DNA from: an uncultured Bacilli bacterium
GTDB taxonomy: Bacteria > Bacillota_I > Bacilli_A > RFN20 > CAG-449
Direction of reading: 5' to 3'
NCBI GenBank assembly: GCA_947632435.1
Contig: CANRPC010000002.1
Location: forward strand, 62,001 to 126,000
DNA: 64,000 nucleotides
In this document: positions 26,331 through 53,210 of the stretch, one piece after another
Position numbering within the stretch: position 1 is the stretch's first letter
How the letters are laid out: the number at the start of each line of letters is the position of its first letter
Made by a program: the position numbers and the translations under genes
Notes under the pieces: generated by a model
Told to the model about the DNA's origin: nothing
The model's input: only the letters and a program-made list of their open reading frames with translations
The model's database searches: none

Positions 26331-26462
26331 TTATTCCCAACCAGTTTCTCCGGCATCAATTTCACCACCATCACCATTACTAATTGTCATAATTTCATTC
26401 ATGATAACATTTAAATTGATTTCATCGAATTCAGCTTCTGGCTTTTTGTATTCTTTTTTCAT
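26331..26462 (-). CDS. Orphan 43-residue acidic peptide, RiPP-precursor-like
   Basis: A short gene with a strong ribosome binding site (AAGGTGGTG, 5 bases before ATG), its own promoter and its own terminator. The peptide has a basic MKKEYKKPEAEF start, a middle INLNVIMNEIMTIS and a Gly/Asp/Glu-rich tail NGDGGEIDAGETGWE ending in Trp-Glu. The leader-plus-tail layout resembles short orphan peptides that are common in gut Bacillota and Bacteroidota and are suspected to be modified or exported. No cysteine is present, so it is not a classical lanthipeptide or sactipeptide, and no maturation enzyme or transporter sits next to it. Function unknown. Confidence 0.65.
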   Translation of the reverse strand: MKKEYKKPEAEFDEINLNVIMNEIMTISNGDGGEIDAGETGWE

Positions 26463-26485: not shown

Positions 26486-26514
26486 CAATATTCCCCCCCG
26501 TAAGCTTGTGTCAA
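26486..26514 (-). promoter_or_regulatory. Peptide promoter with G7 tract in the spacer
   Basis: Minus strand: TTGACA (26514-26509), then CAAGCTTAC, seven Gs (26499-26493) and a weak -10. Candidates are AATATT at 16 bp, ATATTG at 17 or TATTGA at 18. The homopolymer sits between the two elements, so a change of one or two Gs would change spacing and strength. Confidence 0.5.
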
Positions 26515-26536: not shown

Positions 26537-26550
26537 TGTAAACGCTTACA
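26537..26550. promoter_or_regulatory. cre-like operator (CcpA/LacI family)
   Basis: TGTAAACGCTTACA fits the Bacillota cre consensus TGWAANCGNTNWCA at every fixed position, on both strands. It lies 23 bases upstream of the -35 of the 43-aa peptide gene and 35 bases upstream of the GT-C gene's -35, so it could serve either gene. Confidence 0.6.
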
Positions 26551-46890: not shown

Positions 46891-49203
46891 TTATCTAATA
46901 CCATCTAAATAATCTTTTAATAAATCTGCATAGTCTTCCCAGCCTTCAGGAATTACACCATCATCATTGCCATAGAAGCCTTCATTGTTTTGACCAAGAC
47001 CATCTTCAATAGTCGTTTGACCATCAATAACATATTCTTGATTTTTTACATCACTACCATCAGGATTTCCTGGATTGTTACCATTATTTGATTTAGAATT
47101 CGAACCAGAACCTGAGCCGGAACCTGATCCTGAACCTGAACCTGAACCAGAACCTGAGCCAGAACCAGAACCTGATCCTGAACCCGAGCCTGATCCTGAA
47201 CCTGAGCCCGAGCCAGAACCTGAATGAGAACCTAAATTAGAGCCAGAGCCTGATCCTGAACCTGAACCTGATCCAGAGCCTCCTGAACCCGAACCTCCTG
47301 AGCCTGATCCTGAACCTGAACCTGAGCCACCAGACCCAGAGCCTGATCCTGAACCCGAGCCAGAAAGTGAACCTGATCCAGAATTAGATCCTGATAAACT
47401 TCCAGAACCAGATGAATGAGGCATATCTGGATTAATATCTTTATTATCTTCAGGTTTACCTGTTTGTCCTTTTAAATCATCAAGTGCATCTTTAATGACA
47501 TCTTTAGATTCTTTATCAACATCTTCGATATTGCTTGGTCCTTTAAGTGCATCTTTGAATTCTTCTTTAGCTTGTTCAACAGCATCTTGAATTTCACCTT
47601 TAGCTTGTTCAGTATTACCTTGTTCTGCAGATGTTTTTGCAGTTCTCAAGGCGTCTGCTAAATCTAATAAAGCCGCTTTTAACTGAGGATTATTTACTGC
47701 TGCTGCAGCTGCTTCTTCTAATGCTTTAATGTATTTATCTAATTTTGCAGATAATTCTTGGCCGCTTAAACCTTCTGTTTCTGAAATGATTTCATCTAAG
47801 CCTTTATTAACATCAAGCATATAATTAGGATCTATTACATGTGTCCCATCTTCTTTAATTTCAACTTCAGCTCCGATTATACCATTTCCTAAATCTTTTA
47901 ATGCATCACTTGGCATTTCTTCACCATGTTTTACTAAAACTTGTCCTGGACCATCAAGAGATTCAGAAGCATTTTTTAAAGCTTCTTCTAAAATTTTTAA
48001 TATTTCATCACAGAATGCTTCAGTTTTAACAATTTTTTCATCATTTGTTAAATGAGAAGCATTAATTTCTTTTTCAAAGTTATCAATTAAAGCATTTATT
48101 GAATCTTTAATGCTTTGTGCAATATCTGCTGAATTAACAATTGCTCTTAATTCATTTAATAATCTTGCAATTATTTCATCAAATGATTGCCATACTGCAA
48201 AGAAATAAGTATCTTTTTTTACGCTTAAACCATTCATATAGAAAATAGTTTCAGTAATATCCAAACCTGTTCTATCATTTTTGGTAATAGGTTTACCTTC
48301 ATTATCTAATTCAGCATAATTCCAACCAACTAATGAATATCCTTCACGATGAATTTGATCATTGTTAGCAAATAAGGCACCTGGAATTGTCTTCACTGAA
48401 TCAAAGCTTGCATTTGAATCTAATTCAATATAATAATATAAATCATGCCATATACCATCGCTATCGATATATTGTCCGTTTACATGATCAAACCAATCTG
48501 TGCTAGAAATTGATTTATATTCAGTTGCTACTGGATCTGCATATTGATAAAATTGTTCCTCATATATAATGTTATATCCACCAACAAAGTTGATACTAAA
48601 TTTTCCACCATTTGAGTAAAATCTAACTTTATAACTTGTAGGTTCTTCTTTAGCACGTGGAGTTGCTTCAGGAATAAAGAAAGTACTACCACCGAGTAAA
48701 ACCGCTACCACAGCACCAACAATTAAAATTTTTGGGAATTTCATTTTGACCATGCCTGGGTCAACAGTTACCAATTTATCATTAGCATCTTCTCTTTGTT
48801 TTCTAGCAATAAGGCTGTCATCATTTTTAAATTGAACCATGGTAACAACTCTATCTTCTAGACCTAAATTATCAACTCTACGAGCAACTAATTCATCTCT
48901 TGTTTTAAATACTTTTTTAAGTAATAAGATTACGCTAACTGGAATAGCTATTATAGCTAAAACAAGAACAACGATTGAACGATATGAAAAGCCAGTTGCA
49001 TTACATATAGGTGTCAAAATAAGATTCATAAGACCTGCGATAATTATTGAAACCAATATACCAGCTATTAAAGCTTTTATAAAATTTTCAATGACTATTT
49101 TCTTACTATATTTTAATAGATTATTGCCTTCATTATCTTTTTTTGAAACTTCTTTTTTATTTTCCTTTTTTTCTTGAGAAATTTCTTTTTCTTCATCAAT
49201 CAT
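46891..49203 (-). CDS. DUF4175-like membrane protein with InlB-type repeat and long Gly-Ser tract
   Basis: 770 residues. A charged cytoplasmic N-terminus precedes paired helices near 36-65 and 75-95, then [19 protein letters not shown], reminiscent of DUF4175 proteins. A third helix lies near 155-176. The outer part has an InlB B-repeat-like module ([10 protein letters not shown] to YFFAVWQ, about 195-335), a helical coiled-coil region (about 340-570), about 105 residues of almost pure Gly-Ser and an acidic end ([15 protein letters not shown]). It sits between the lipoprotein and MoxR genes and is probably a surface component of the same complex. Confidence 0.7.
47098..47415 (-). repeat. Gly-Ser coding tandem repeat
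   Basis: About 318 bases encode nearly uninterrupted (Gly-Ser)n, built from imperfect 6-base units such as GGTTCA, GGATCA and GGCTCT on the minus strand. Codon variety within the tract suggests selection for the peptide rather than very recent expansion, though slippage is still possible. The tract's GC content is far above its surroundings. Confidence 0.9.
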
Positions 49204-52083: not shown

Positions 52084-52353
52084 TTAATAATTTGATGCTG
52101 CAATACCTATGCCACCTAAAAATAGCCAAATTATTCCCCAAAATACAAGTGAAATTATGCTTAAAACGAGTCCAGCTATTGCTAAGCCACTATAGGAATA
52201 TTTATCCTTTTTACTAACTCCAATAGCGCTTAAAATAACACCTAAGATTGGTGTTATACAAAACCACATACCAGACCATAAGGACAATAAGCCTATTACA
52301 AATCCAGCAATTCCTAAACCATTTACTTTTTTTTGAATTTCTTTTTCTTCCAT
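52084..52353 (-). CDS. DUF4190 small membrane protein
   Basis: An 89-residue protein with two hydrophobic helices (about 12-42 and 55-83). The repeated IAGFVIGLLSL and LAIAGLVLSIISLV are the DUF4190 signature; the family has no known function. The ATG follows TTAGGAG. It is monocistronic, with a promoter containing a ten-G homopolymer and its own hairpin terminator. Confidence 0.82.
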   Translation of the reverse strand: MEEKEIQKKVNGLGIAGFVIGLLSLWSGMWFCITPILGVILSAIGVSKKDKYSYSGLAIAGLVLSIISLVFWGIIWLFLGGIGIAASNY

Positions 52354-52384
52354 AATAAATCTCCTAACAAATGTTTTTTTGTTA

Positions 52385-52415
52385 ATTATACCCCCCCCCC
52401 GTTTAAATTTGTCAA
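52385..52415 (-). promoter_or_regulatory. DUF4190 promoter with G10 tract in the spacer
   Basis: Minus strand: perfect TTGACA (52415-52410), AATTTAAAC, ten Gs (52400-52391), then perfect TATAAT (52390-52385). The spacer is 19 bp; removing two Gs would give the optimal 17. The layout is that of slipped-strand phase-variable promoters. Confidence 0.75.
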
Positions 52416-52426
52416 GAAGTATTGCA

Positions 52427-52456
52427 TAAAAAAACTCTACAAATTAATGTAAAGTT
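52427..52456 (-). terminator. Terminator after parA
   Basis: AACTCTACA (52433-52441) pairs with 52448-52456 with one mismatch, and Ts follow on the minus strand. It overlaps the last codon of parA and closes the suf-mnmG-rsmG-parA run. Confidence 0.65.
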
Positions 52457-53210
52457 ATTTATCTAAATTTAATTCTTTAACAAGTGCATTATAAGCTTGA
52501 GCTCCTGTAGAATTAGGTCTATATATAGTTATTGGTATTCCAACCATTTGAGATTCAACGATAGAATTATTTCTAGGAATTTGTGTTACAAAAGTTTTTT
52601 CTTTGAATAATTTTCTTATCTCAATAGTAATTTCTGTTGCAAGTCTTAATCTTGAATCATACATTGTTAATAAAAAACCAAGAATTTTTAAATTTTTATT
52701 ATAATGGAGTTGAACATTTGAAATGGTTGCAAGCATGTGGGAAACTGCATCAAGAGCAAAACATTCACATTGCACAGGAATTATAACTTCATCAGATGCA
52801 ATTAAAGATGATAATTGTAAAAAGCCAAATGAAGGAGGCGTATCAATCAATATATAATCATATGCATCTAAATTACGAATACATTTACCTAACAATAATA
52901 AAGGATTTTTAGATTTAATTTTTGTTTCTAAAATAGTTAAATCGACTTTACTTGGTAAAAGGTCCAAATCTTTAATGCGTGTTTTTTTTATTGCTTTATA
53001 AATATCATAATTAGATACTAAAACATCATATACACTATGATTAAATAAACTAGCATCTAATCCTAAACTTTTGGCACAATTGCTTTGAGGATCCATATCA
53101 ATAACCAATACTTTTTTGTTGTGCGATATTAAAGCTCCAGCTAAAGATATTGTAGTTGTTGTTTTACCAACTCCACCTTTTTGATTTGCAATTGCGATGA
53201 TATGTGCCAT
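52455..53210 (-). CDS. parA: ParA/Soj-family chromosome partitioning ATPase
   Basis: 251 residues with the deviant Walker A KGGVGKTTTT at 11-20, Walker A' VIDMDPQSNCAKSLG and Walker B YILIDTPPSFGFLQL. Soj/ParA works with ParB/Spo0J bound at parS to segregate origins and regulate DnaA. It follows rsmG by 20 bases, as in many Bacillota near oriC, but no parB follows; instead a terminator and an unrelated gene come next. Confidence 0.92.
   Translation of the reverse strand: MAHIIAIANQKGGVGKTTTTISLAGALISHNKKVLVIDMDPQSNCAKSLGLDASLFNHSVYDVLVSNYDIYKAIKKTRIKDLDLLPSKVDLTILETKIKSKNPLLLLGKCIRNLDAYDYILIDTPPSFGFLQLSSLIASDEVIIPVQCECFALDAVSHMLATISNVQLHYNKNLKILGFLLTMYDSRLRLATEITIEIRKLFKEKTFVTQIPRNNSIVESQMVGIPITIYRPNSTGAQAYNALVKELNLDK

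Follow-up and report, generated by a model that had tools for sequence, protein, structure and literature searches.

Promoter and gene at 52385-52415

The window, i.e. the whole stretch of 64,000 nucleotides analysed here, has a GC content of 27% and carries at positions 52385-52415 a promoter that is read on the minus strand, the plus strand being C10 at 52391-52400. The promoter and its surroundings contain the following features, in the order of transcription:

52426-52458, minus strand: hairpin (9-bp stem) and U-tract 3' of parA, a probable terminator (RNA fold)
52410-52415, minus strand: TTGACA, a consensus-perfect -35 hexamer (sequence)
Between TTGACA and G10, minus strand: AATTTAAAC, the 5' part of the spacer, 9 nt (sequence)
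52391-52400, minus strand: G10 homopolymer in a 19-nt spacer, touching the -10 box, with AC as 5' flank (sequence and shuffles)
52385-52390, minus strand: TATAAT, a consensus-perfect -10 hexamer (sequence)
52361-52365, minus strand: AGGAG, Shine-Dalgarno-like (sequence)
52084-52353, minus strand: gene of a DUF4190-like 89-aa protein with two predicted membrane helices (profile match and helix prediction)

The initial annotation had placed ten consecutive Gs between a perfect TTGACA and a perfect TATAAT, and this proved exact on the minus strand. The spacer is 19 nt as assembled (9 nt plus G10), and the removal of two Gs does give 17, i.e. nine fixed bases plus G8. TATAAT (52390-52385) lies 37 nt before the gene, whose ATG is at 52353. 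The gene had been assigned to DUF4190; the match to this family (PF13828) covers 61 of 62 positions with an E value of 1.1e-7, while its score of 31.9 bits falls short of the Pfam cut-off of 35, and the product is therefore called DUF4190-like here. As a predicted two-helix membrane protein, the target belongs with surface or envelope genes. The hairpin after parA has a folding energy of -10.4 kcal/mol (z -4.1) in the RNA fold and is absent from the list of a GC-based terminator scan. Since parA ends in this hairpin and U-tract, the DUF4190-like gene is probably driven by the poly-G promoter alone, with the hairpin as its probable shield from upstream transcription. Near this locus, a 770-aa protein with a long Ser-Gly repeat region is encoded at 46891-49203 on the minus strand.

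Poly-G tracts in the host genome

The G10 tract is hardly a product of chance, as the initial annotation had argued. When the 64-kb window was shuffled 100 times with its dinucleotides preserved, no ten-base C/G run appeared, and 12 G/C runs of at least 9 were found in the whole 1.68-Mb genome against about 0.03 expected, a figure extrapolated from the decay of shorter runs. The lengths of G runs in the genome are bimodal, with one G7, no G8 and twelve of 9-11. Six of the 12 tracts of at least 9 G are placed 9 nt after TTGACA. The tracts in the host genome are:

Window locus: poly-G promoter tract before the DUF4190-like gene
L018: poly-G promoter tract before an acyltransferase-3 gene (PF01757)
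L020: poly-G promoter tract before a lipoprotein gene
L014: tract after TTGACA, before a small gene, without a good -10 box
L017: tract after TTGACA, before a small gene
L009: tract after TTGACA, the gene downstream truncated by the contig end
L001: C9 directly upstream of a -35 box, touching it
L010: tract close to the C-terminal end of a repressor-like gene
L012: tract upstream of a secreted-protein gene
L002: G10 in the ORF of a secreted-looking or surface protein, out of frame; G9 would join 112 and 499 aa
L004: G11 (1501-1511) in an Eco57I/MmeI-type methylase gene, out of frame; G12 would join 499 and 244 aa
L016: G9 in a family-2 glycosyltransferase gene, in frame

With 12 tracts of at least 9 G, including coding tracts both in frame and out of frame, the genome has the apparent make-up of a multi-locus SSR phasome. 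A gene judged by eye to be methyltransferase-like in a related genome (L213 in G010) also contains a G9 tract, in frame; together with the L004 methylase gene it is a candidate for phase-variable methylation.

The window contains a second poly-G promoter of the same design, with 9 nt before a G7 tract:

26537-26550: cre-like site TGTAAGCGTTTACA, upstream of the G7 promoter
26493-26514, minus strand: TTGACA-CAAGCTTAC-G7-AA-TATT
26331-26462, minus strand: gene of a 43-aa acidic peptide (MKKEYKKPEAEF...), downstream of the G7 promoter

A similar 48-aa peptide (MKKIYEKP...) is encoded elsewhere in the host genome, and it is the -35 box of its gene that is touched by the C9 of L001.

Recurrence, target genes and tract lengths in relatives

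Of 279 genomes of the order, 44 contain the pattern TTGACA-N-G(at least 8)-TANNNT. A class-wide sample of 395 genomes includes 27 that contain the G(at least 8) spacer pattern with TATWAT. The reversed-pattern control gave 0 matches in both sets. Where the first downstream gene begins within 120 nt, it encodes a membrane protein, secreted protein or lipoprotein in 71 of 82 cases (87%), compared with 18 of 45 window genes (40%, p 1e-7) and 54 of 103 neighbouring genes (p 6e-7). Three DUF4190 genes were found in the family (G000, the host genome, G001 and G009), and all three have a poly-G promoter, with spacers of 19, 18 and 14; the loci are unrelated in context, one being beside parA, one beside rplS and one at a third locus. 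On contig C6 of G601 (L128), a tandem array of secreted-protein paralogues carries a near-identical G8/G9 promoter before each gene and is a candidate combinatorial antigen array. On two IMG/VR phage contigs (L119 and L121), a poly-G promoter precedes membrane-protein genes amid structural genes.

Tract lengths were compared in a set with one genome per species, in which the viral contigs L119 and L121 carry the cassette once each; homopolymer lengths in short-read assemblies may err by one. Promoters differing by one G were found between orthologues in G053 and G055 (G8/G9), between paralogues in G029 (L179, G8/G9) and in G601, where one of eight near-identical promoters has G8; the flanks of these promoters are 84-95% identical. 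Equal lengths were found in the orthologous promoter pairs L026/L031 (G8/G8) and L188/L189 (G10/G10). Among 19 coding tracts examined in the host genome and its relatives, 12 are in frame as assembled and seven are out of frame with long intact ORFs on either side; in the genus of the window six are out of frame and two in frame. One lipoprotein gene of two sister species of this genus (L219 and L221) has G10 in one and G8 in the other, both out of frame. A G9 tract would restore the frame in either gene, and downstream of the tract 426 and 482 codons are still open.

Proposed slippage switching, its alternatives and known systems

The initial annotation had read the tract as part of a phase-variable promoter, and the comparison lends support to this reading: many independent loci share one geometry that the reversed-pattern controls lack, the target genes are biased toward the surface, tracts disrupt reading frames in the host genome, and tract lengths differ among orthologues and paralogues with conserved flanks. 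Dozens of related genomes have this arrangement in front of genes for surface proteins, so the promoter very probably belongs to a larger set of random on/off switches. We regard it as highly likely that G10 is a slippage contingency switch in the spacer of a sigma-A promoter and one member of a multi-locus phasome. During replication the tract at 52391-52400 would gain or lose single Gs in living cells through slipped-strand mispairing, each change would shift the distance and helical phase between -35 and -10 by one bp, and transcription of the DUF4190-like membrane protein would go up or down in a heritable and reversible manner, cell by cell. The phasome of the host genome would consist of about six such promoters and the in-ORF tracts, mostly of surface, glycan or restriction genes. 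If spacer length sets the transcription level, with 17 strong and 19 weak, the assembled spacer of 19 would be the weak state and the G8 form the strong one; published spacer work makes this plausible, although most assembled poly-G promoters in the set have spacers of 18-19.

Some observations count against a switch. Among the 107 collected poly-G promoters, spacers of 18-19 are the most frequent and 15 forms a second mode, rather than 17 (for ordinary exact TTGACA/TATAAT pairs of the genus the peak is at 16-17); some orthologous promoter pairs have equal tract lengths, as given above; and MutS1, which would slow slippage, is intact in the host genome (980 bits). The intact MutS1 also rules out that a loss of mismatch repair is the cause, and switching, if any, does not depend on such a loss. 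In the order, poly-G promoters occur in 21 of 72 genomes with MutS1 over the cut-off versus 23 of 207 other genomes. Reiterative transcription is also ruled out by position, the tract being 5' of the -10 box and therefore not transcribed, and an intramolecular G-quadruplex from one tract is unlikely, G8-G10 being too short for four looped GG blocks.

The long tracts of the genus have a flank in common. In a genus-wide census, AC stands directly 5' of 34 of 43 runs of at least 7 G; among long tracts it precedes all 16 in promoters and 11 of the 16 in genes, where it occurs in more than one reading frame. Of the 107 promoters, 75 have C directly 5' of the tract, 26 have T and 6 have A. The short runs of 2-4 G in the window show no such preference, C being directly 5' of only 7-15% of them. 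From the AC-G(7-11)-TA flank one might suspect that, in a cell with working mismatch repair, the tracts arise or are kept up through a dedicated sequence-specific process (a protein, a modification or a copying mechanism) instead of through passive slippage and selection; we consider this improbable. It is also unlikely that the tract serves as an invariable structural or operator element of the spacer, i.e. stiff A-like DNA or the site of a G-tract-binding regulator, that tunes a constitutive promoter and whose length is not meant to vary. The conserved AC and TA around the tract, the unchanged length in some orthologues and the narrow range of 17-20 in which most assembled spacers fall would suit such an element; it does not fit with lengths of 8-11 and beyond, for which the 5' part of the spacer compensates weakly (r = -0.20), with the same tracts inside ORFs, where genes get broken, or with classical contingency genes as targets. 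A former switch, now fixed ON or OFF and drifting, is very unlikely. The length at 52391-52400 was observed once and MutS1 is present, as such a relic would allow, whereas the perfect -35 and -10 boxes and the open gene are still kept, long G runs are rare in the host genome, and the bimodal run lengths suggest active maintenance. Poly-G sequencing artefacts exist (e.g. no-signal G calls in two-colour chemistry) and the genomes look like draft multi-contig assemblies, but an artefact of sequencing or assembly is scarcely credible here: in dozens of genomes the tracts are located exactly in the -35/-10 spacer, with no match to the reversed pattern, they are bordered by unique sequence, and they occur in either orientation.

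The proposed slippage switch has known counterparts. In N. meningitidis porA a spacer of 17 is optimal and activity drops when the spacing is reduced from 17, the T. pallidum tp0126 tract between -35 and -10 gives the best activity at a spacing of 17, and the poly-G of T. pallidum tprL varies from 7 to 11 in vivo (PMC7864442); in N. meningitidis fetA, tracts of 6C do not vary, in contrast to those of 8C or more (PMC13293289). The promoter described here resembles the poly-G or poly-C promoters of porA and fetA in having a core-promoter homopolymer of about 8 or more repeats before a surface-protein gene, and porA also in its position between -35 and -10; as in the porA/fetA/tp0126 type, at least 8 repeats lie in the -35/-10 spacer, here a non-chance G10 between perfect boxes. 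It is unlike porA and fetA in its perfect TTGACA and TATAAT, in its Gram-positive-type small-genome host, and in that a uniform layout (9 nt, G(n), TATAAT) is repeated several times per genome. T. pallidum tp0126 and tpr also have poly-G promoter tracts, that of tp0126 between -35 and -10 as well; those are genes of spirochaete outer-membrane proteins with measured switching, whereas switching of the promoter described here is predicted from sequence. The SSR phasomes (e.g. of Helicobacter and Neisseria) and the phase-variable restriction genes are similar in that one genome carries numerous tracts, located in genes for surface structures, glycans and methyltransferases, and in that frame-disrupting states occur alongside intact ORFs; unlike in those phasomes, roughly half of the tracts here are at promoters, and the lineage is uncultured.

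For RF39, no report of phase variation was found in the library searched. Simple-repeat phase variation is known chiefly from pathogens. According to a 2025 review, the apparent limitation of multi-locus systems to pathogens may reflect database bias (PMC11868660). The stereotyped poly-G promoter cassette recurs in an order of uncultured Bacilli with small genomes and also in other families of the class, its targets being lipoproteins, fibre-like (TasA/camelysin-looking) proteins, acyltransferases and DUF4190 proteins, and cells that carry it may diversify their surface constantly. Since the tracts are short, their lengths are countable in existing metagenome reads. The mechanism would be that of the known porA/fetA/tp0126 type, and the novelty appears to lie in the occurrence of a multi-locus phasome among uncultured Bacilli with small genomes. 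Ordinary in its mechanism and of a known kind, the system is nonetheless real and extensive, and the group that carries it is poorly known.
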